Below, piece by piece: positions 5,271 to 36,461 of a DNA stretch of 64,000 bases (positions are counted from its first letter, which is position 1; every line of letters begins with the position of its first letter). Position numbers and translations under genes: made by a program. Below the pieces are notes generated by a model. The model made no database searches. It was not told the origin of the DNA and worked only from the letters and a program-made list of their open reading frames with translations. Origin of the DNA: Kineosporia babensis. GTDB lineage: Bacteria > Actinomycetota > Actinomycetes > Actinomycetales > Kineosporiaceae. The stretch is from positions 682,001 to 746,000 of the forward strand of contig NZ_JAJOMB010000001.1 in NCBI RefSeq assembly GCF_021129305.1, in the 5' to 3' direction.

Positions 5271-5408
5271 AGCCCGATCGGGCCCTGAGCGCCGCCCGGA
5301 AAGCGTTTAGGAATCATTTAGGTACGGCCAAAGAAGCTCATACCTGTGTCAGCGCCGATGCAGTGTTGTGACTGGCGCCCGCGCCTCAAAGCCGGTAGAT
5401 GGAGCGGC

Positions 5409-6464
5409 TCAGAGCGTGTAGCGGTCGACCCCGAAGTTGTCCTCGTCCAGCACGATTCCACCGGCCGCCTCGACCAGCGCGCGGGTGGTGCGGGCGATCA
5501 GCGGCGCGACGTGCGCCCGGCCGGTCCGGAAGTCCTCCGGCGGGTAACGCATTTCCCGCTCCGAGGGGTCGAGGGGCTGCCAGCGCACCTCGTACGTCAC
5601 CAGTTCCTCGTTGGCCCAGGGCTGCCCGGCCACCGTGGGGTCGTCGGCGTCGGTGAGGTGGACCAGCACCTCGACCACCCCGTGCCGGCCGAAGTCGTTC
5701 ACGATCGCGAAGCCGTCGATCACGTCGTCCTCGCTGAGCATCCGGCGGTCGCGCTCGTCGGCGGCGGCGTGCAGACGCTGCAGGTCCTGCTGACTGAGCG
5801 GGCTGCGCCCGACATCCTCCAGCAGGCTCGCCCCGCTGTAGGCCTCGGCCGGCGGGCCGGCCCAGTCCTCCCCATCGACCGCGAGCACCGCCCCCGGCAT
5901 CTCCCGGTTCACGATGCCGAGCAGGACGTCGGGCTCGAGCCAGGTCTTGGAGTGCACCACGTAGTCGACCGCGCGATCCGGGTCGGGCTGGATCAGCTGC
6001 AGCGTGCCCGCGACGCGCACCGCGCCGCCGATCCGCCGGGCCAGACTGACCATCAGCTGCAGCGCGCGGCCTTCGTCGCGCCAGGGCAGACCTTCGGGGA
6101 AGGCGTAGGCAAGGCCGTCGCGATCGTCCACGCCGGGCAGCGGCGGGTCTTCCCGCTCGACCGGAGCCTCCAGGCAGTAACAGACCGTCCAGGGCATGGG
6201 GACGCCCGCGTCCACCGCGTCTTCCATCGACAGCTGGTAGGGGCCGGTGAGCTGGCTGTGCCGGCCGAGCTGGACCTCGCCGCTGTCGTACAGGTCGCTG
6301 TGCGGGATCCGGTCGCGCACCAGCGTGTCGACCACTTCGAGATCGACCGTGGTGGGGCACAGCAGCAGGTGGCGGGCGGCCAGGTCCAGAACCGAGATGC
6401 CCTGCTCGACCTCGGGAGCAGGCGCAGGCGCCTGCTGCTTGTCACGTCCCCATCGCCCCGCCAC
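5409..6464 (-). CDS. Hypothetical cytoplasmic protein
   Basis: Encodes about 351 residues. I chose the GTG at 6464 because GGGAGG lies eight bases before it; the frame stays open upstream but without another ribosome site. No signal peptide, membrane segment or catalytic motif is recognisable. The protein is acidic and mixed alpha/beta in character (for example DDVIDGFAIVNDFGRHGVVEVLVHLTD). The plus-strand tRNA gene starts 122 bases from its start codon in the divergent direction. I do not recognise the family and propose no function. Confidence 0.7.
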   Translation of the reverse strand: MAGRWGRDKQQAPAPAPEVEQGISVLDLAARHLLLCPTTVDLEVVDTLVRDRIPHSDLYDSGEVQLGRHSQLTGPYQLSMEDAVDAGVPMPWTVCYCLEAPVEREDPPLPGVDDRDGLAYAFPEGLPWRDEGRALQLMVSLARRIGGAVRVAGTLQLIQPDPDRAVDYVVHSKTWLEPDVLLGIVNREMPGAVLAVDGEDWAGPPAEAYSGASLLEDVGRSPLSQQDLQRLHAAADERDRRMLSEDDVIDGFAIVNDFGRHGVVEVLVHLTDADDPTVAGQPWANEELVTYEVRWQPLDPSEREMRYPPEDFRTGRAHVAPLIARTTRALVEAAGGIVLDEDNFGVDRYTL

Positions 6465-6529
6465 GAACGCAGCCTCCCGTTGAAGATCCTCGGGGCAAAG
6501 GTTAGCAACCGAGACGGGGTGCCGGAGGG

Positions 6530-6559
6530 TTGGCCACAAGCCGCCCGGACTTTGATACT
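6530..6559 (+). promoter_or_regulatory. Promoter of the tRNA-Gly gene
   Basis: TTGGCC (6530-6535) and GATACT (6554-6559) are separated by 18 bases, close to the housekeeping sigma-70-type consensus, and lie 27 bases before the mature tRNA. Confidence 0.6.
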
Positions 6560-26850: not shown

Positions 26851-28470
26851 GTGGACGACGAGCAGGGGCCCTGGTGGACCCGCCCGCCGGAGCCAGGTCC
26901 GCGGGTGAGCCTGCGCGACGAGGACCGTGACACGAAGACGACCCTGGAGGACGACGAGTCCTCCGACCCGTACGACACGGAGATCTACCGCCCGGCAGCG
27001 TCCGAGCCGGCTGGTTCCGCGGCCGAGGGGGCGCCTGGTTTCGCGCCCTGGTTCGCCCAGCCGGAATCGCCCGACCAGGGCGCTCCAGCCGGCCCAGGCG
27101 GCCCGACCGGTTCGGTACCGGCCTCGCCGCAGACCCAGCCGAACCGCACCACCCGGTCGGGGCGGCGGGCGGCCCGGTCGGCCCCGGACGAGCCCTCGCC
27201 GTACGCCAGCCCCGGTTCGGATGCCTCCAGCTCGGACACCCCAGCCTCGGGCGCCCCCGCCTCGGGCGCCCCTGACTCGGGAGTTCCGGCGCAGGGCGGC
27301 TGGCCGGACGCGACTCCGGTACCGCAACCTCCTCAGGCTGCTCCGGTGGCCCAGGATCCGGCGGTCCAGAACGCGGCCACCATGCCGCTGCCGTTGATCG
27401 ACGAGCCGGGTGGTCAGCCGTCGCCGGACGCCACCCAGCCCGCGCCGCAGGCACCCCCGAAGCCCAAGAAGCCGCCGGTGATCCGCCGGGTGGCGGCGCC
27501 CGACCCGCCGGCCACGCCCGCCCGGCAGGCCAAGCCGAAGGCGGTCCCGACCGACCGCAACGCCTACGCGCCGCCGCAGAACGGGGACATCTGGGCAACC
27601 TTCAGCGGCCCGATCCCGCTGCCCGACGAGGTGCTGGCGCAGCGCGGCCAGGCGCCGCAGAAGAAGACCGCGGCCCCGCCGCCCCCGCCCCGGCCGGAAC
27701 CCGAGGCCGGCGGTGACGGCGATGGCCAGAATCCGCTCAAGCGATTCCTCACCGTCCAGGTGCCCGAGGCCCGCTTCGTGCTGATCGCCGTGGCCGGTGG
27801 TCTGGTGGTGCTGCTGATCATGCTGGTCGCGATGCTCAGCGGGGGCGGCCCGGGCAGCAGCGGCGACGAGAGCGAGCCCGAGGAGTCACCCACCGGCCTG
27901 AGCGGAATGCGGGCGAACGGCCTGAGCGAGGTCAAGGCGGTGGCGGCGTCCAAGCTGCTGCAGCGGGCCGACGCCAATCCCGGGGGCCAGGTGGTCGAGG
28001 CCTACGAGTGGCAGGACAAGAACGGCAAGAACCTGGTGGCGGCGATCGCGGTGGCGGCCGACCGGCGCAAGACCACGCTCAAGGTGGTCCACGTGGTCGG
28101 CCTGGAGGACAACGGCGACCCGCGAGTGCTGCGGGTGATGACCGATCCGGATCTGCCGGCCTGTGACAAGCGCGGCGGCACGGCCGAGTTCGCCCCGGGC
28201 GGGATGCAGATCCAGGACCTGGACAGCAACGGCTACGCCGAGGTGATCGTCGGCTGGTCCTCGCGCTGTGGGCGCAAGGCCACCCTGGAGAGCACGGCCA
28301 AGCTGGCGCTGCTCAGCAACGGCGACAAGTACATCGTCCGGGGCGAGGGGGTGCTGCAGTCCGATTCGGGCAGCACCACCCCCGAGCCCGGCATCGACAA
28401 GTGGCCGGCCGGGTTCTACGACACGGTCAGCAAGCGCTACGCCGAGCAGTTCTTCCCGGTCAGCCAGTAG
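26851..28470 (+). CDS. Pro-rich membrane-anchored hypothetical protein
   Basis: Encodes 539 residues from a GTG with GAAGGGG upstream. About 290 N-terminal residues are Pro/Ala/Ser-rich and probably disordered in the cytoplasm. A membrane segment lies at about 308-330 (FVLIAVAGGLVVLLIMLVAML). The extracytoplasmic part has an FG-GAP-like acidic turn (DLDSNGYAEVIVGW) and three Cys. The TAG stop (28468-28470) is composed of a TA target and the first base of the inserted repeat at 28470; the same TAG recurs on the other side of the insert. Confidence 0.75.
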   Translation: MDDEQGPWWTRPPEPGPRVSLRDEDRDTKTTLEDDESSDPYDTEIYRPAASEPAGSAAEGAPGFAPWFAQPESPDQGAPAGPGGPTGSVPASPQTQPNRTTRSGRRAARSAPDEPSPYASPGSDASSSDTPASGAPASGAPDSGVPAQGGWPDATPVPQPPQAAPVAQDPAVQNAATMPLPLIDEPGGQPSPDATQPAPQAPPKPKKPPVIRRVAAPDPPATPARQAKPKAVPTDRNAYAPPQNGDIWATFSGPIPLPDEVLAQRGQAPQKKTAAPPPPPRPEPEAGGDGDGQNPLKRFLTVQVPEARFVLIAVAGGLVVLLIMLVAMLSGGGPGSSGDESEPEESPTGLSGMRANGLSEVKAVAASKLLQRADANPGGQVVEAYEWQDKNGKNLVAAIAVAADRRKTTLKVVHVVGLEDNGDPRVLRVMTDPDLPACDKRGGTAEFAPGGMQIQDLDSNGYAEVIVGWSSRCGRKATLESTAKLALLSNGDKYIVRGEGVLQSDSGSTTPEPGIDKWPAGFYDTVSKRYAEQFFPVSQ

Positions 28471-28641: not shown

Positions 28642-30261
28642 TCAGCGCAGCAGCGGCAGGTACAGAGGCACGTAGCTGCTGTCCCGGTCGGCGGATCCTC
28701 GCCACCGGGTCAGCAGGTTCGTCTTCGCCGGTACCGGTTCCCCGGCCAGCACGCCCTCCAGCTCGGCGAACGGTTCCACGCCGGACAGCACGTCCAGCAC
28801 TGCCTCCCAAAGTGCAGGCTCCGCCGCCGGGCTGCGGTCGGCCAGCGCCGCGACCATCCCGCCGACGTGGTTGATCAGCAGGCAGTAGGCCACCCGGTCC
28901 CAGCCTCGCTCACGCGGGGTGCCGACGTGGGCCCGCACCCGCTCGGGCATGGCGGCCAGGTCTTCGGCCCGGCGCTCGCGCACCAGTTTCACGCCTTCCA
29001 GATCGCGCAGCACCACCTGGGCGGGCATGCCGTCACCGTCCAGGCCGACGATCACGTTCTGCAGATGCGCCTCGAAAACCACGCCGTGCCGGGCGAAGGC
29101 GTACAGCACCGGCGGCACCACCTGGCGCAGGTAGCGCTGCCACCAGTCCAGCAGCAGCTCACGGTCGGCGGTGATCCGCTGCAGCAGCCGGGCCAGCGCC
29201 GGGTGGGGCAGTGGCTCGGTGAAGGCGGCTGCGGGGACCGCGCGCACGCCCGGATGCAGCTTGCCCTGCAGTCCTTCGCGCCGGATCACGCCGAGCTGGT
29301 CGGCCAGGCCTGGGCCGAGATCGGCGGTCAGGCCGGAGGTTTCCCGCAGCAGCACGGTGCCGGGGAACCGGGTGGCCAGGTTGCGGCGCAGCGGTTCGAG
29401 CAGTCCGGCCAGGGTGACCGCGGCCTGCACCTCGTGCCAGGGGTTGATCCGCAGACAGTTGGTGATCAGCACGCTGAGGCTGAGTTTCACGAACTCGCGG
29501 TCGTCGGCCGCGACGGTGCGCACCGATGAGGTGGGGCGCATCAGGGGACCACTCGGGCCGAGGTCGATCGCCCGGCCGTCGGCGAGCGCGGCGGGAAACT
29601 CCTCACCCCGCGACAGGATTGCGTACTGCCAGGGGTGCAGCGGCAGCAAGCGGTAGCCCTCCGGGGCGCTGACCTCGTCGGGCAAAGCGGTTTCGGGAAT
29701 CCGGATTTCACGTACCAGGTCGGCCCGCACCGCGATCTGGTGCAGCTGGAACCGGGCACCCAGCTCCGGGGCGTAGCGGCGAACCTCGTCCGGCCTACCG
29801 GAACGTGCCTTCGGCGCCGGGTGGTTCCGGTGCCCGGTCAGCAGCGACTGTTCCAGATCGAGGTAGCCGTCCTCGGCCTGCGGCGGCCGGGACAGCGCCT
29901 GTGCGATCAGGGCGTGCGAGGCCTCGATCTGCGCGGGCAGGTGGTCGGCCGAGGCTCCGGTGATGGCGGCCAGTTCCTCGTCCAGCAGGGCCAGCAGCTC
30001 ACGCCAGCTCAGGCCGGCCGGGTCCGGGGCCTCGGCCAGATGCACCTGGCCGGTGAACGGCGGCTCGAATGTTCCACGGGAAACATTGCTCATCGGCCGC
30101 CGGAGCCGGGCTCTTAAGGACCGGGCCGATTTCTCCAGCTGGATGATCACCCAGTCCGGGCCGTCGGGTACCACGTTGCCGGCCGGGCCGGAGACCTCGC
30201 GGACCAGGCAGTTCAGCAACGCCACGACGGTGACGGCCTCGGCGCTGACCGGCTCGGTCAC
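28642..30261 (-). CDS. IucA/IucC-family NIS siderophore synthetase (second of two)
   Basis: Encodes about 539 residues. The GTG at 30261 is preferred because GGGGGAGGG stands ten bases before it; an alternative GTG at 30300 overlaps the previous stop. Family motifs: LLPLHPWQYA, RPTSSVRTV (nucleotide binding), RINPWHE, VFEAHLQNVIV (the ExHxQN active-site motif), LRDLEG. Such enzymes adenylate a carboxylate (often citrate) and condense it with an amine or alcohol to build non-ribosomal-peptide-independent siderophores. It follows the other synthetase closely, so they probably act in sequence. Its stop faces the MITE copy A. Confidence 0.93.
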   Translation of the reverse strand: MTEPVSAEAVTVVALLNCLVREVSGPAGNVVPDGPDWVIIQLEKSARSLRARLRRPMSNVSRGTFEPPFTGQVHLAEAPDPAGLSWRELLALLDEELAAITGASADHLPAQIEASHALIAQALSRPPQAEDGYLDLEQSLLTGHRNHPAPKARSGRPDEVRRYAPELGARFQLHQIAVRADLVREIRIPETALPDEVSAPEGYRLLPLHPWQYAILSRGEEFPAALADGRAIDLGPSGPLMRPTSSVRTVAADDREFVKLSLSVLITNCLRINPWHEVQAAVTLAGLLEPLRRNLATRFPGTVLLRETSGLTADLGPGLADQLGVIRREGLQGKLHPGVRAVPAAAFTEPLPHPALARLLQRITADRELLLDWWQRYLRQVVPPVLYAFARHGVVFEAHLQNVIVGLDGDGMPAQVVLRDLEGVKLVRERRAEDLAAMPERVRAHVGTPRERGWDRVAYCLLINHVGGMVAALADRSPAAEPALWEAVLDVLSGVEPFAELEGVLAGEPVPAKTNLLTRWRGSADRDSSYVPLYLPLLR

Positions 30262-30296
30262 TTCCAGACGTCCCTCCCCCTGGAGGATCGGCCCGG

Positions 30297-32081
30297 TCAC
30301 AGGTAGGTGGGCGCGTCTGCGCCGTAGAACTTGTTCACGTCGGCAGCTCCGGTGCGAGATTTGGGTAGCAGGGTCGCGGCGGTCAGCGTCCGTTTCACCG
30401 GAAGTCTCTCCGCCCGGATGATTCCTGAGTTCACGAGTGCGGTGTCGCGTGCGTGCGGGTGCGCGCCGGCGAGTTCCTGCAGCAGCGGGCGGACCCGGGC
30501 GAGCAGCGGGCCGACCGGCCGGTCCAGTCCCCGGCCGGTCTCGATCAGTACCGAGGCCACGCACTGGTGCAGCGTGGTGGTGACGAACATGGCGGCCAGA
30601 TCCACCGGGTCCTTGGCGATCAGGCGGTGATCGCTCAGGCCGGTGGGAGCGGCTTCGCCGAGGGCCGGTCCGGCCAGATCCGGGTCGACCAGGCAGCTGT
30701 CCAGGTCACGCAGGAGCAGGCGTAGCCCGGAGTTCTGGTCAAGGACCACGAGCACGTTCTGCGGGTGCGCCTCGTGCACGATGCCGTACTTCAGCCAGAG
30801 CGAGAGTTGCCAGGTCAGCAGCGTGCGCAGGTAGGCATCGAGGAACGCGTCGAGGTCTCCGGCGAAGTACTGCCCGGCCAGCACCTCGACCAGCAACCGA
30901 CCGTCCCAGCGGCGGGCGGTGAGCGCGGCCACCGGTAGCACCTGAGCGTTGGCCAGGTCGGGCCAGCGGCGGATCAGCACGGCCAGGTGATTGTCGGCGT
31001 GCAGCCAGGTGGACTCGTCGGCGGTCAGCACGCTGTGCCGGAACTCCTCGTCGCGCTGCAGCAGGTCCTGCAGGCTGCGGGTGAGCACGGCGCCGTCGGC
31101 GAGCGAGGCGCGGCTGACCAGGCGAAGGTTCAGCCGGCCGAGAGTGCGCATCGGCAGCGGGGTCTTGAGATGCACGGACTGATCGGCCTCGGGCACCACC
31201 GTGCGCATCGAGAGGGTGGGCCTGACTTGCAGCCTAGGCGCGGGCAAGGGCTGCCAGGGGACGTCGGTCAGGGCTTCGGCGAGGAGTTGCTTGGTCATCG
31301 CCGGGTGGACCGGGAAGACCTGCTGGCCTTCGGCTTCGGGCCACCAGTCGGGTAGTTCGCCGCCTGCCGTGACGTGGCTGGTGGGGACGCTGACCCAGCG
31401 CAGGCCGAAGCGAGGGGCGTGTTCGGGGGCCCAGCGCGGCAGGTCGGCGGGTTTGAGCCCGACGCGGGCGATGGAGAGGGGGTAGATCGGGTGGTCGCGG
31501 TGGGCGGCGAGAGCCTCGGCGACAAGCCAAGAATCAGCATTGCCCCGCAGCTGTCCGAAAATGGTGGCCCGGCGCCGATCCCGCACCTGAGCAGACCCGG
31601 CTGCGGACCTGGCCTCGACCATGAGCGCCTCGAACCCGGCCCGGAACTCCTCTCCCAACTCAGGCGCCACGCTGGTGAGCAGTTCAACCTCCAGCGCGCG
31701 CACGAAAGACCCCAGTTGCCGGGCCTGAGAACGCCCTCGCACCCCGACCTGCAGCACGAACGGCGAGCGCATCACCAGATCGCTGACCAGGTCTCCTCGT
31801 TCGACCGAACCGGCTCGCACCGGCATCCGCAGGCCGTTCAGAGCCAGCCACAGGTCGTTGCTCGACGATTCGGTGCGCCGGGTCCAGCCAATGGCCGAAC
31901 GCCGCCCCGCCATTCGCGGCCGGGAGCCGGCCAGACGAGGACCAGCAGCCGGCAGCAGTACGCCCCGGCTGCGCAGTCCGGCCACGTCCTCACGCAGCAG
32001 AGCCGTGCCCAGCCGCAGGATCAGATCCCGTTCCCAGCGCGCGACCCGCGACCCCGAGCCCAGTGCCCGCGCGGCCCTCAC
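30297..32081 (-). CDS. IucA/IucC-family NIS siderophore synthetase (first of two)
   Basis: Encodes 594 residues from the GTG at 32081, which overlaps the TGA of the ATP-grasp gene by four bases (GTGA), implying translational coupling. Motifs: FPVHPAMTKQLL, RPTLSMRTV, IVHEAHPQNVLVVL (ExHxQN), LLRDLDS. It is clearly distinct from the downstream paralogue, so the two probably catalyse different condensations. The C-terminal FhuF-like/helical part is complete. Expected substrates are citrate or another dicarboxylate plus an amine or hydroxyl partner, but the sequence does not tell which. Confidence 0.93.
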   Translation of the reverse strand: MRAARALGSGSRVARWERDLILRLGTALLREDVAGLRSRGVLLPAAGPRLAGSRPRMAGRRSAIGWTRRTESSSNDLWLALNGLRMPVRAGSVERGDLVSDLVMRSPFVLQVGVRGRSQARQLGSFVRALEVELLTSVAPELGEEFRAGFEALMVEARSAAGSAQVRDRRRATIFGQLRGNADSWLVAEALAAHRDHPIYPLSIARVGLKPADLPRWAPEHAPRFGLRWVSVPTSHVTAGGELPDWWPEAEGQQVFPVHPAMTKQLLAEALTDVPWQPLPAPRLQVRPTLSMRTVVPEADQSVHLKTPLPMRTLGRLNLRLVSRASLADGAVLTRSLQDLLQRDEEFRHSVLTADESTWLHADNHLAVLIRRWPDLANAQVLPVAALTARRWDGRLLVEVLAGQYFAGDLDAFLDAYLRTLLTWQLSLWLKYGIVHEAHPQNVLVVLDQNSGLRLLLRDLDSCLVDPDLAGPALGEAAPTGLSDHRLIAKDPVDLAAMFVTTTLHQCVASVLIETGRGLDRPVGPLLARVRPLLQELAGAHPHARDTALVNSGIIRAERLPVKRTLTAATLLPKSRTGAADVNKFYGADAPTYL

Positions 32082-33295
32082 CCGATCACCCAATCCCCGC
32101 CGGCCAGGAACTCGCTGGTCACGGCCTCGACTCCGGCCGGGTCCGGACCGGTGACGGTGACCGAGCCCAGGTAGTCGCGGTTGGTGCCGGTGACCTGGAC
32201 CTGCGCACCCACCGGCTTCATCGGGCGGTAGTTCAGCCGGTAGCTGCGGCCCTGCCACTCGCGAACCTCGGAGAACTCGTCCGGCGCCCGGTGCAGCACG
32301 CCGCCCCGGTCCACCAGCACCCAGTGCACCACCCCCGCCCGGTGCGTCGAGCGTCCTGAATCCGGCTCTTTCAGGGGTTCGCCGATCAGGAGCCGGAACA
32401 GGTCGTGGAACAGCGTCTCCTCGAGCAGGCGGGCCATCGCGAAATCGCAGTGGTCGCCGATCAGCCGGTCGTTCACCTCGACGATCCGCGGCCCGGCGGC
32501 GGTGAGCACGAATTCGGTGTGGCAGGCCCCGAATCCGGCTCCCAGAACTTGTAACTGCTTGAGGACGTTTGCGGTCACCGCCGGGTCGGGCTGCGGATCC
32601 CAGGTCAGGCGCTCCTCGATGAAGTATGGCGGCGGTGACACCCGGGTTTGCCAGCTGCCCAGAACGCGTAGCCGGGTTCCGTCGCCGAAGGTCTCCAGGG
32701 TCTGCAGCGGCCCCTCGAGCAGACCCTCCAGCAGCAGATCGCTCTCCCGGCGGCGGGAGCGGACGTCGGCCACCCGCTGCACCAGCTCTTCCCGGTCGCG
32801 CACCATCACGACGTCTTCGCTGGCCACGCCTTCTGCGGGTTTGAGCACGACCGGGTAAGGGATTTCGGCCTCGTCCGGAAGCGCGCTGCCGGGCACCAGC
32901 CGCTGGCAGTAGGTGTCGTCCAGGCCGGCCGAGCGCAGACTCGCCCGCATCAGGCCCTTGTCGCGGGCGCGCTGGGCCGAACGCCAGTCCTTGCCGGGCA
33001 GATCCAGGTAGTGCGCCACCAGAGCGGTCTGCACCTGAAGGTGGTCGCTGTTGCTGATCACCGCGAGCGGAGTGCCGGTGGCCTCGATGGTGGCCAGCAC
33101 GGCGCGGACGTCCTGGACGGCGCAGCCGACCACCTCGGGCCGGCCCAGCCGGTCGTGGCGACCTGCGTAGGCACGGCGATGCGCGTCCGGTTCGTCGGTC
33201 AGGATCCGCACCGCGAACCCCAGATCATGGGCGGCGGGGAGCAGCCCGTGGGTGACGGTGTCGGTGGGATTTCGGGCAAGCAGCACCACGGCCAT
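32078..33295 (-). CDS. ATP-grasp ligase of the siderophore cluster
   Basis: Encodes 405 residues from the ATG at 33295 (GGAG upstream). The ATP-grasp fold is supported by DKGLMRASLRSAGL, YPVVLKPAEGVASEDVV (Lys of the ATP loop), LLEGLLEGP and RIVEVNDRLIGDH (metal-binding Glu/Asn). Such ligases join an acid to an amine via an acyl phosphate. In the vibrioferrin cluster PvsA plays such a role next to two NIS synthetases, so this protein may add an amino acid or similar unit here. First gene of the minus-strand operon, controlled by the iron box at 33505. Confidence 0.85.
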   Translation of the reverse strand: MAVVLLARNPTDTVTHGLLPAAHDLGFAVRILTDEPDAHRRAYAGRHDRLGRPEVVGCAVQDVRAVLATIEATGTPLAVISNSDHLQVQTALVAHYLDLPGKDWRSAQRARDKGLMRASLRSAGLDDTYCQRLVPGSALPDEAEIPYPVVLKPAEGVASEDVVMVRDREELVQRVADVRSRRRESDLLLEGLLEGPLQTLETFGDGTRLRVLGSWQTRVSPPPYFIEERLTWDPQPDPAVTANVLKQLQVLGAGFGACHTEFVLTAAGPRIVEVNDRLIGDHCDFAMARLLEETLFHDLFRLLIGEPLKEPDSGRSTHRAGVVHWVLVDRGGVLHRAPDEFSEVREWQGRSYRLNYRPMKPVGAQVQVTGTNRDYLGSVTVTGPDPAGVEAVTSEFLAGGDWVIG

Positions 33296-33504
33296 GTGGA
33301 TCACTCCAACACGAGCCACTGTGCGGCAGACAGCCGCTCGGGTGCACGGCGACCGCACTCCCCACGCCACTCTGGCTGAGCGCAACTCGGAAGTTGCTCT
33401 GGGTTACTCAAGTGGCTGCTCCCGAACACCGAGAAGAAGGGGGCGCATACAACGCGTGGCACGTTCGGATCTCCCGCGAATGTCGACGTCGGCCTACCTG
33501 CGAT

Positions 33505-33523
33505 TAAGGACAGCCTTACCTTA
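33505..33523. promoter_or_regulatory. IdeR/DmdR-type iron box
   Basis: TAAGGACAGCCTTACCTTA agrees at 13 of 19 positions with the IdeR/DmdR consensus (TTAGGTTAGGCTAACCTAA as I remember it). It overlaps the probable -10 (TATAGT, 33522-33527) of the FhuF-type gene and lies in the divergent gap, so one box could repress both directions when iron is sufficient. Confidence 0.75.
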
Positions 33524-33569
33524 TAGTTGCTGCAGGCAGTGACCCGGACATCTCGAAGGGAGCTTGATA

Positions 33570-34391
33570 GTGGCAGGTCAGAGTGCCATTCGACTGCTCT
33601 CGCGTCCTACCGGTCAGTCACCAGCGGTGATCGATGCGAACCCGGTGATGCTGCTGGCCCAGCAGTTGACGATTCTCGACCCGGGCTATGCGGCACTCGC
33701 CTTCGACCAGATCGGGCCGGGGTCCCAGTGGTTCACTCCGCGTGAGGTGATGCAGGCCATGCTGGCCTCACGCGCGTCGCACACCCAGGCCGGGCCGGCC
33801 GTGATGGGTGCGCGCCTGGCCGGAAGCCTGGGCTACGCGGCAGCTGGGCGGCTGGGCGTGGCCATGGCCGTGGCCGGCCGGGCCTACGACACCGGCCCGG
33901 ATTCGCTGATGCTGCGGTTGGACGAAGACGCGCTGGTGGCCCAGATCGCCGTGCGCTCGGCGCGAATGGCCGTTCTGCCCAACGATCCGCTGGCCGGTCG
34001 GCCGGACGTCACCGTTGTCGAGGACCGGGCGGCGCTTGCTTCATGGGCCGCCCGGGGTGCCTACGCCACGCTCGCCCCGCTGATCGACGAGGTGCACGCG
34101 CAGACCCGCTACGGCGGGGTCGCGATGTGGAACCAGATCGCCGACTCGGTGCTCAGCCCGGCCACCAAAGCCCCACTCCTGGCCGGGCAGAGCCAGGAAG
34201 CCGGGCGCTCGATAGGCCAATTGTTGCTGGATGCCCTGGTTGCTGAGGGGGCCCCAATCCGCCGCCGGGGAACCGTTCGCCCGGCCCAGAGCGAAACCGG
34301 CGGCGCGGTACTCGATCCCGTCCGGGGTATGTGCTGCCTGGTCTACCGTCAGGACAAGGACAAGTGCGGCGGCTGCCCGCTGGTCAAGTGA
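33570..34391 (+). CDS. FhuF-type (2Fe-2S) ferric-siderophore reductase
   Basis: Encodes 273 residues from the GTG at 33570, eight bases after GAAGGGA. The C-terminus carries the FhuF cysteine pattern: Cys255, Cys256, Cys266, Cys269 (CC-x9-C-x2-C), which binds a 2Fe-2S cluster; the body matches the ferric-iron-reductase family. It releases iron from imported ferric siderophore in the cytoplasm. Divergent from the biosynthetic operon across the iron box. Its last 43 bases overlap the 3' end of the convergent MFS gene. Confidence 0.9.
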   Translation: MAGQSAIRLLSRPTGQSPAVIDANPVMLLAQQLTILDPGYAALAFDQIGPGSQWFTPREVMQAMLASRASHTQAGPAVMGARLAGSLGYAAAGRLGVAMAVAGRAYDTGPDSLMLRLDEDALVAQIAVRSARMAVLPNDPLAGRPDVTVVEDRAALASWAARGAYATLAPLIDEVHAQTRYGGVAMWNQIADSVLSPATKAPLLAGQSQEAGRSIGQLLLDALVAEGAPIRRRGTVRPAQSETGGAVLDPVRGMCCLVYRQDKDKCGGCPLVK

Positions 34392-35758
34392 TCCTCCTCC
34401 CGCTCCAGCCGTGACCCCAGGGCCAGAACACCGGCCTGAGACAGCGCGAGCACCAGGAACAGCCAAAGCACCCAGTCCTGCGCCACCGACTGCAGCAGCC
34501 CCAGCAATGTCACTCCCACTGAGGCCCCGAACTGCACGGTCATGAACAAGGCCGTACTCCCGGCCGCTTGCTCCCCTGGCGCCAGCACCCCGTACGCGCC
34601 GGCCACGGTCGGCGCCGCGGTGGCCCCGAAACCCAGACCTACGACCAGGAAGAGGACGTAGAGAGCGGGCAGGGGTAGGTCGTCGTGGGCCAGGGCGAAG
34701 GTCAGCAAGCCGGCCAAGGTCACCGCAGCACCGCCCATCACCAGCGGCCTTGCTCCCATCGTGTCGCTGAGCCGGCCGCTGGAGGTCATCGAGATCAGCA
34801 GCCCCACCCCCAGCGCGCTGACCAGAATGCCCTGCTCCAGCCCGGACAGGCCGAAGCGCTCGACGCCGAAGACCGGCAGCGAGGTGAGCAGCGCGAACAT
34901 GGTCAGCCCGACCAGCCCCATGATCGCCATGCTGGGCCCGAAGGCCGGGCGGCCGAGCAGGCGCAGATCGAACGCCGGCGGACGGGTCAGGCGCCGGGCG
35001 TAGGGCACGTATCCGGCCAGGAGCAGCGCGCCGAGCAGGCCGATCAGGACCAGCATCAGGCTGGGACCCGACTCGCCTGAGCGGTTGAGCGCGAAGAGCA
35101 CGGCCACGAAACCTACGGTCAGCATCAGCAGGCCAGGTATGTCGGCCCGGCTTCGGTTGATTGGGGACGTTGTGGGCGCCGGGATCTCCAGCGTTCGGGT
35201 GGCGCCGAGCACGGCTACCAGGACGAGCAGGCCCAGCGGCAGGTTGATCAGGAAGATCCACTGCCAGTGGCCGGTCTGCAGAAGCAGTCCTCCGACCAGC
35301 GGCCCGGCCACCGGCGCGACGTTGACCACCATCGACATCACGCCCATGACCCGGCCCATCCGGTTCTGCGGGGCCAAGGTGGCGGCCAGGGTCATCGCGG
35401 TCGGCTCGACCATGCCGCCGCCGATGCCCTGGATCACCCGGAACGCGATCAGCGCGGGCAGCGACCAGGCCAGTGCGGTCAGGCCGGAGCCGAGCATGAA
35501 CAGCAGCAGGCCGACGACGAACATCGTGCGCGGGCCGTACCGGGTGGTGAGCCAGTTCAGCACCGGCAGCACCGCGGCCACAGCCAGCAGATAGGCGATC
35601 GTCGCCCACACCACCTGGTCGAGCCGGGCGTCGAACGAGGTGGCCAGCGTGTCCAGGGCAACTGCCACAACGGTGCCGTCGAGGACGGCGAGCAGAGCGG
35701 CTCCGGCCACGGCAGCGACGGCGGGCCGGTAGTGGGGCCGCACGTTGTTTACTGTCAT
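34349..35758 (-). CDS. DHA2-type MFS exporter, probable siderophore exporter
   Basis: Encodes 469 residues from the ATG at 35758 (MTVNNVRPHY). Fourteen predicted membrane segments; LDGTVVAVALDTLATSF in TM1, RYGPRTMFVVG (motif A) and VAPVAGPLVGGLL (motif C) mark a proton-driven DHA2 exporter. Its place beside NIS synthetases is like PvsC of the vibrioferrin cluster, so siderophore export is likely; drug export is the alternative. It overlaps the FhuF-type gene tail to tail and is divergent from a TetR gene, which probably represses it. Confidence 0.88.
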   Translation of the reverse strand: MTVNNVRPHYRPAVAAVAGAALLAVLDGTVVAVALDTLATSFDARLDQVVWATIAYLLAVAAVLPVLNWLTTRYGPRTMFVVGLLLFMLGSGLTALAWSLPALIAFRVIQGIGGGMVEPTAMTLAATLAPQNRMGRVMGVMSMVVNVAPVAGPLVGGLLLQTGHWQWIFLINLPLGLLVLVAVLGATRTLEIPAPTTSPINRSRADIPGLLMLTVGFVAVLFALNRSGESGPSLMLVLIGLLGALLLAGYVPYARRLTRPPAFDLRLLGRPAFGPSMAIMGLVGLTMFALLTSLPVFGVERFGLSGLEQGILVSALGVGLLISMTSSGRLSDTMGARPLVMGGAAVTLAGLLTFALAHDDLPLPALYVLFLVVGLGFGATAAPTVAGAYGVLAPGEQAAGSTALFMTVQFGASVGVTLLGLLQSVAQDWVLWLFLVLALSQAGVLALGSRLEREEDHLTSGQPPHLSLS

Positions 35759-35855: not shown

Positions 35856-36461
35856 GTGGCACCCAGGGACCGTAGGCGCGACATCCTCGAAGCAGCCGCC
35901 CCGATCTTCGGCGACGAGGGGTACGAACGAGCCAGCATCGAGGCGATCGCCGGCCGGGCCGGAGTTTCCAAGCCCACGGTGTACAGCCACTTCGGCGGCA
36001 AGGAGCAGCTGTTCCGGGAGTCGGTGGCCGACTCGGCGCGGCAGCAGAACGAGGCTGCGCTGGGCGCGATCCTGGCCCTCGACCTGAGCCCTCAGAACTG
36101 GCGCGAGAGCCTGTTCCAGCTCGGCCTGGCCCTGGCCGACTGCTCGCTGAGCCCGTGCTCGGTGTACCTGGACCGGATGATCGCCGCCGAGATCGGCCGC
36201 GACCCGGAGATCTACGAGGTGGTGCAGACCCGGGCGGTGCGTCCGGTGCAGGAGGCGCTGGCCGGGCGGATGGCCATGCTGGGCAACGCCGGCCACCTGA
36301 AGATCGACGATCCGGCCCGGGCTGGGCGGCAGTTCCTGGTGCTGGTCAACGCCGAACTGCCGGATCTGACGATGCTGGGCACCCGGCGGATCTCGGCCGA
36401 GGAGTTCGAGGCGGCAGTTCGGCTGGGAGTGGAGACGTTCCTGCGGGCCTACGCGAGCTGA
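35856..36461 (+). CDS. TetR/AcrR family transcriptional repressor
   Basis: Encodes 201 residues from a GTG. The N-terminal helix-turn-helix is canonical (ILEAAAPIFGDEGYERASIEAIAGRAGVSKPTVYSHFGGKEQLF across about 9-52). The C-terminal ligand domain resembles the AefR-like group. Divergent from the MFS exporter, which it most likely controls. The ligand could be the siderophore or an unrelated toxic compound. Confidence 0.92.
   Translation: MAPRDRRRDILEAAAPIFGDEGYERASIEAIAGRAGVSKPTVYSHFGGKEQLFRESVADSARQQNEAALGAILALDLSPQNWRESLFQLGLALADCSLSPCSVYLDRMIAAEIGRDPEIYEVVQTRAVRPVQEALAGRMAMLGNAGHLKIDDPARAGRQFLVLVNAELPDLTMLGTRRISAEEFEAAVRLGVETFLRAYAS

Follow-up and report, generated by a model that had tools for sequence, protein, structure and literature searches.

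A locus of the actinomycete Kineosporia babensis that encodes an ATP-grasp ligase and two nonribosomal peptide synthetase (NRPS)-independent siderophore (NIS) synthetases probably accounts for the greater part of a vibrioferrin-type (pvs/avs-type) NIS siderophore pathway, the genes of which lie at two separate sites in the genome. We analyzed a window of 64,000 nucleotides (contig C1, positions 682001–746000) from the draft genome (9.4 Mb in 89 contigs; G000 among the genomes compared here). Three genes on the minus strand follow one another in the order ATP-grasp, NIS1 and NIS2, and both junctions are 4-bp start/stop overlaps (GTGA). The domain matches (the one of the ATP-grasp protein to PF13535 scores 28.7 bits with a cut-off of 27) and the overlaps bear out the description of a chained operon with an ATP-grasp ligase and two distinct IucA/IucC synthetases, which had been given in a first-pass annotation. 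That annotation had also read the absence of PvsE, a pyridoxal 5′-phosphate (PLP)-dependent decarboxylase, as a sign of a possibly new product. We find that PvsE is indeed absent from the window and that a PvsE/SbnH-type PLP decarboxylase is encoded on a separate contig, C67. The vibrioferrin-type reading draws directly on gene content, gene order, family placement, an iron box and the co-occurrence of the cluster with this decarboxylase.

The C67 decarboxylase shares 53–56% sequence identity (53% by BLAST) with the operon-encoded Streptomyces-group enzyme that served as query. Its match to PDB entry 6knh, which we take to be SbnH, scores 230 bits, compared with 116 bits for BtrK and at most 91 bits for diaminopimelate decarboxylases, and 81 of the 84 columns that are invariant in PvsE are retained in the Kineosporia enzyme. 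We calculated a decarboxylase tree with 45 rows, 24 of them drawn from the 66 named loci with a linked gene; its two outgroup rows have branches of 10 each, and the root means little. In this tree the Kineosporia decarboxylases are found amid operon-encoded PvsE homologues, adjoining that of Actinomadura (support 89/87, not starred). The gene is present in six of six Kineosporia genomes and always lies away from the cluster, at a distance of ∼2.6 Mb in a Kineosporia genome that consists of a single contig (G004). The terminal gene of the three Streptomyces-group loci tested (L038, L040 and L046) encodes a PLP decarboxylase of the ornithine/diaminopimelate type.

To follow the two parts of the pathway across the class Actinomycetes, apparently the same 394 genomes were searched with NIS1 (strong matches, E ≤ 1e-39) and with the decarboxylase (E ≤ 1e-60); the best 3 and 4 candidates per genome, respectively, were scored, and all counts are lower bounds. 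Strong NIS1 matches were obtained in 30 genomes, K. babensis included, and all 30 contain the decarboxylase. It was also detected in 4 of the 364 genomes without a strong NIS1 match, a group that includes eight with weaker NIS1 hits (E 2e-13 to 1e-3). In two of the four (G374 and G411) it adjoins a different kind of cluster with three NIS genes, G345 has NIS genes elsewhere, and the fourth, G405, has none. In the 30 NIS1-positive genomes the decarboxylase is linked to the cluster in 21, lies on another contig or far away in 8, and cannot be placed in G414, where NIS1 is located on a 4.5-kb contig. The cluster surroundings were viewed in six of the 8 unlinked genomes (G000, G109, G202, G289, G398 and G420), and G351 and G412 were assigned by contig number alone; several Streptosporangiaceae genomes, too, have an unlinked decarboxylase. 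Within the family Kineosporiaceae, NIS1 and the decarboxylase occur together in all six Kineosporia genomes; in the seven other genomes NIS1 was not found, and the decarboxylase search gave only matches of at most 34% identity. The named actinobacterial loci, the best 80 of 559 confirmed relatives, have a linked decarboxylase in 66 cases, lack it in 7 despite more than 1.5 kb of visible sequence (the Kineosporia rhizophila locus L080 is one of these), and are cut or cannot be judged in the remaining 7. These results deprive the case for a possibly new product of its chief support, because every one of the six Kineosporia genomes has the decarboxylase at another site and the enzyme goes together with the cluster throughout the class. 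With the enzyme found on C67, we reject the bare absence of PvsE from the locus as an argument for new chemistry.

Features of the locus in the window and of the unlinked decarboxylase (positions refer to the window unless a contig is named)
Feature	Position	Strand	Match or remark
ATP-grasp ligase, PvsA-like, 405 aa	32078..33295	-	PF13535
NIS1 synthetase, PvsB-like (type B), GTG start, 594 aa	30297..32081	-	PF04183+PF06276
NIS2 synthetase, PvsD/AcsD-like (type A), GTG start, 552 aa	28642..30300	-	PF04183+PF06276
IdeR/DmdR-type iron box, between ATP-grasp and fhuF-like genes	33505..33523	.	kept in 6/6 Kineosporia genomes
FhuF-like ferric-siderophore reductase candidate, 273 aa	33570..34391	+	TIGR03951 at 27 bits, below cut-off
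DHA2-family major facilitator superfamily (MFS) exporter, candidate siderophore exporter, 469 aa	34349..35758	-	PF07690; TIGR00711 223 bits
TetR regulator, divergent from DHA2 exporter	35856..36461	+	PF00440/PF14246
PvsE/SbnH-type PLP decarboxylase	C67:74495-75670		separate contig from operon
Palindromic repeat, ∼160 bp	28472..28634
Gene convergent with NIS2	26851..28470		C-terminal part matches NF046077

The two synthetases and the ligase belong with their counterparts from pvs-type operons, and the trees and the gene order support the likeness to PvsA, PvsB and PvsD noted in the first-pass annotation. As references we used homologous operons from Vibrio sp., Pantoea, Cupriavidus, Piscirickettsia and Rhodococcus, to which the pvs genes of V. 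parahaemolyticus do not belong; the names PvsB and PvsD are assigned by operon position, the records annotating both proteins only as IucA/IucC family proteins. In each of these five annotated operons the genes run ATP-grasp, NIS, MFS, NIS and PLP enzyme (annotated alanine racemase in Rhodococcus). In a NIS tree of 52 rows, calculated by a quick method without bootstraps and including 12 of the 80 named loci, NIS1 is part of a 21-row clade with the PvsB-position rows of all five genera (SH-aLRT, the Shimodaira-Hasegawa-like approximate likelihood ratio test, is 100). NIS2 belongs to a type A clade of 25 rows (SH-aLRT 100), which also holds the PvsD-position synthetases and is separate from the DesD and SbnF-like rows; the Kineosporia NIS2 rows lie within an 18-row clade of actinobacterial rows and Rhodococcus (SH-aLRT 99). 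The glutamate, arginine and lysine residues E442, R501 and K563 of AcsD, which recognize or activate L-serine according to an excerpt of the published work (PMC3323832), align with E412, R471 and K528 of NIS2 and are conserved in all four Kineosporia sequences compared. The K. babensis ATP-grasp protein is 43–50% identical to five actinobacterial homologues from other genera, 39% identical to the Cupriavidus protein, and 30–36% identical to the pvs-type homologues of Vibrio, Piscirickettsia and Pantoea, the last of which is annotated PvsA.

The best PDB matches are 7cbb, which we take to be SbnC, for NIS1 and AcsD (202 bits) for NIS2, and the same two entries come out best, respectively, for the synthetases at the PvsB and PvsD positions on a Vibrio plasmid. 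Type A and type B synthetases and an SbnH-type decarboxylase also belong to the staphyloferrin B and achromobactin pathways, and NIS2 resembles the achromobactin enzyme AcsD both in family and in its L-serine recognition residues. These matches and shared enzyme types could thus point to a staphyloferrin B-like or achromobactin-like siderophore in place of a vibrioferrin-like one. The staphyloferrin B and achromobactin pathways use three NIS synthetases, however, whereas NIS1 and NIS2 are the only IucA/IucC genes in the whole K. babensis genome. In addition, an ATP-grasp gene comes first in pvs-type operons, and NIS1 groups with the PvsB-position rows while the SbnC-like row forms a long branch outside them (its attachment to the PvsB clade is flagged by the tree program as possibly spurious). 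We regard such a product as very unlikely in Kineosporia. A three-synthetase cluster of this kind is seen in G411 (L165, L173 and L175), which contains SbnC-like (355 bits) and SbnF-like (544 bits) synthetases, both below their NCBIfam cut-offs, a third NIS gene and the decarboxylase nearby; by its gene content it appears staphyloferrin B-like, outside the staphylococci.

Between the ATP-grasp gene and the divergent fhuF-like gene we located a 19-bp box with the sequence TAAGGACAGCCTTACCTTA. The search pattern was derived from the five other Kineosporia loci, and with 3 mismatches allowed this box is the only match on either strand of the window, compared with 0 matches in 100 shuffles. All six Kineosporia genomes have the box in this intergenic position, and it is conserved in their aligned intergenic regions, in which the flanks drift. 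The IdeR/DmdR-type box proposed at this position is thereby confirmed. A scan of the whole K. babensis genome with up to 3 mismatches returned 10 matches over both strands, corresponding to 8 distinct sites (a reversed control pattern gave 1 match), and four of these sites lie within ∼1 kb of matches to FecB-type binding proteins (contigs C11, C21, C56 and C67; gene context was examined for C11). A box is also present shortly 5′ of the ATP-grasp gene in all of the Streptosporangiaceae (8) and Actinomadura (1) loci scanned, and only at a distance in the single Streptomyces locus scanned (L081). IdeR/DmdR probably turns the operon off when iron is plentiful.

Conservation within the genus also bears on the question of whether the locus is decayed or silent, with no siderophore being made, as might be supposed for a locus known from sequence alone in a draft genome of this many contigs. 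The ATP-grasp, NIS1 and NIS2 genes have open-frame matches over nearly their full length in 5/5 other Kineosporia (67–86% identity), the iron box is kept in every genome, and invariant columns are retained in NIS1 (44/54), NIS2 (67/77) and the ATP-grasp protein (47/49). All six genes of the locus (ATP-grasp, NIS1, NIS2, FhuF-like, exporter and TetR) are matched in each of the five other Kineosporia loci. Decay or silence is in our view highly improbable.

Several observations weigh against reading the locus as a simple copy of the vibrioferrin pathway. NIS1 is altered at 9 of 54 and NIS2 at 10 of 77 otherwise invariant columns, and these changes are shared by all four Kineosporia compared; other lineages have at most 4 such columns in NIS1 or NIS2. 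Kineosporia-fixed changes at invariant columns number 2 of 49 in the ATP-grasp protein and 1 of 84 in the decarboxylase, proteins in which other lineages reach 6 (Piscirickettsia and Rhodococcus, respectively). The stems leading to the Kineosporia proteins are long (1.02 for NIS1, 0.77 for NIS2 and 0.94 for the decarboxylase), and the type A clade does not settle how the Kineosporia group branches relative to the PvsD rows of proteobacteria and the remaining type A rows. As the NIS1 and NIS2 stems are comparable in length to the Piscirickettsia end branches (1.0 each), drift over time is one reading of these differences and altered specificity is another. The grouping with clusters of known product, for which the first-pass annotation had proposed a phylogeny of the synthetases and the ligase, holds at the family level only: NIS1 and NIS2 have long stems and fixed changes of their own, and the reference operons are homologues with putative products. 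On the side of the decarboxylase, none of the 12 loci around unlinked copies carries an iron box when scanned with up to 4 mismatches, and at 3 mismatches or fewer the whole-genome scan located none at the K. babensis gene; co-regulation with the operon is thus hypothetical. The C67 decarboxylase adjoins genes for a UvrD-type helicase and for a protein lacking any Pfam match; a LysR regulator was the third neighbor tested, and none of the three points to iron. The genome G405 has a close PvsE-type decarboxylase (57% identity) yet no IucA/IucC match at all, and its gene may be a relic or reflect a second use of the enzyme. Finally, the co-occurrence and linkage counts are uncorrected for relatedness, and no product is reported for an actinobacterial member in the literature surveyed.

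The synthetase changes, the lack of iron boxes at unlinked decarboxylases and of iron genes among the neighbors tested, and the case of G405 would all be consistent with carboxy-vibrioferrin or another analogue, in which the serine carboxylate is retained or the acceptor or amino acid differs, with the unlinked decarboxylase having another role. In contrast, the decarboxylase accompanies the cluster in all six Kineosporia genomes and, like the cluster, was not found in the seven other genomes of the family; it has kept nearly all invariant PvsE columns, and the L-serine triad is intact in NIS2. We consider this alternative unlikely. What is left of the proposal of a new product is the tentative idea, to which we give a similarly low probability, that Kineosporia makes a new vibrioferrin analogue with both synthetases shifted in specificity and decarboxylation uncoupled from iron control, so that a carboxylated compound is formed, alone or mixed with its decarboxylated counterpart.

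For the favored vibrioferrin-type pathway, we infer substrates, steps, regulation and product as follows. NIS2 (PvsD-like) would activate citrate and couple it to L-serine, forming O-citryl-L-serine, for which AcsD provides the precedent. The PvsE-type PLP decarboxylase encoded on C67 would then take off the serine carboxylate to leave an ethanolamine ester, and the ATP-grasp ligase (PvsA-like) and NIS1 (PvsB-like) would attach alanine and 2-oxoglutarate. The predicted product is vibrioferrin or a near analogue, built from citrate, serine, alanine and 2-oxoglutarate. The DHA2 protein is probably the siderophore exporter, and the FhuF-like protein may free iron after uptake. Passages in two reviews assign the steps differently, with serine decarboxylated first and PvsA forming the ester (PMC6836290, PMC5577590), and a passage in one review states that the functions of the vibrioferrin enzymes are still untested (PMC6836290 / PMC5577590).

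The assignment of the divergent gene as a FhuF-type reductase can be upheld in part. The protein has no Pfam match at a threshold of 0.001, and its TIGR03951 score falls short of the family cut-off of 63.85 bits, but a C-terminal four-cysteine motif, CC-x9-C-x2-C, is kept in 6/6 Kineosporia. The usual spacing in the FhuF C-terminal motif is ∼10. A divergent FhuF-like gene is located less than 2 kb from the ATP-grasp gene in 21 of the best 80 named loci, Kineosporia included. The DHA2 exporter (TIGR00711 cut-off 230.2 bits) had been placed after the operon; the gene is present but lies on the other side, beyond the fhuF-like gene and convergent with it, end to end. A DHA2 homologue is found beside the cluster in all five other Kineosporia loci. 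In one of these, L018 from genome G005, it is matched in two frames (∼5307–6538), corresponding to either a broken gene or a sequencing error. A TetR homologue adjoins the exporter in the same five loci and is probably a local regulator of the exporter gene; we are unsure whether it belongs to the siderophore pathway. When the binding protein of the Rhodococcus cluster was used as query, the K. babensis genome returned 17 matches, the best of them on C11 (38%). The region C11:136500-142500 (L199) contains genes for a FecB-type binding protein, a FecCD permease and ATP-binding cassette (ABC) proteins with an iron box directly 5′, and is a candidate uptake system.

The operon is bordered at the NIS2 end by a convergent gene, in the product of which the first half looks proline-rich and the C-terminal part matches NF046077 with 74 bits (cut-off 60). 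This neighbor is located on the NIS2 side in four of the five other Kineosporia loci and on the exporter side in L014. A palindromic repeat separates the ends of the two genes. With the best 40 candidates scored per genome, at least 18 near full-length copies with at least 93% identity were found in K. babensis, and diverged or partial copies in the five other Kineosporia genomes. Its predicted fold has an energy of −128 kcal/mol (z −8.3), and several copies share CTAGGGCCTGTCC-like ends. The repeat resembles a small mobile element that is non-autonomous, or a terminator-like one.

Comparison with pvsABCDE, by way of the homologous operons, reveals the same order of overlapping ATP-grasp, PvsB-type and PvsD-type genes and a PvsE-type decarboxylase in the genome. 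Kineosporia differs in that the decarboxylase is encoded outside the operon and the MFS protein is of the DHA2 type and likewise outside, with none between the overlapping genes; it further has a FhuF-like gene, an actinobacterial-type iron box and diverged synthetases. A PvsC-like MFS gene occurs in 32 of 74 named loci (NIS2 after ATP-grasp) and hence is not general. With the Streptomyces, Streptosporangiaceae and Actinomadura homologues, and presumably with the avs cluster, the locus shares the ATP-grasp protein (46–50% identity) and two NIS proteins. The iron box 5′ of the ATP-grasp gene is common to the scanned Streptosporangiaceae and Actinomadura loci, and a divergent FhuF-like gene to some homologues; unlike Kineosporia, these mostly have the decarboxylase in the cluster, and sometimes an adjoining binding-protein gene. 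The Streptomyces avermitilis genes avsA–D are called a vibrioferrin-like siderophore cluster, with AvsD annotated as diaminopimelate decarboxylase, in an excerpt of PMC9394381, and a part of PMC7385001 lists a weak (18%) vibrioferrin match for the Streptomyces tunisialbus genome. Among the papers surveyed none deals with the Kineosporia locus described here, although this is no proof of absence. The kineochelins, NRPS products of Actinokineospora according to an excerpt of PMC13238742, were considered as a related product and rejected as unrelated.

Taken together, the Kineosporia locus is a diverged member of the known vibrioferrin-type family, whose decarboxylase gene lies elsewhere in the genome and whose two synthetases have diverged. 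A gene that is absent from a cluster does not imply a step that is absent from the pathway, and here a genome-wide search restores a pathway that a reading of the cluster alone would call a novel scaffold. Operons of the vibrioferrin type occur in many actinobacteria of soil; in Kineosporia and several Streptosporangiaceae genomes the decarboxylase is not linked to them. Vibrioferrin has been tentatively identified in one soil, as a portion of PMC7527475 reports, and the actinobacterial operons bear on which soil organisms could supply it.

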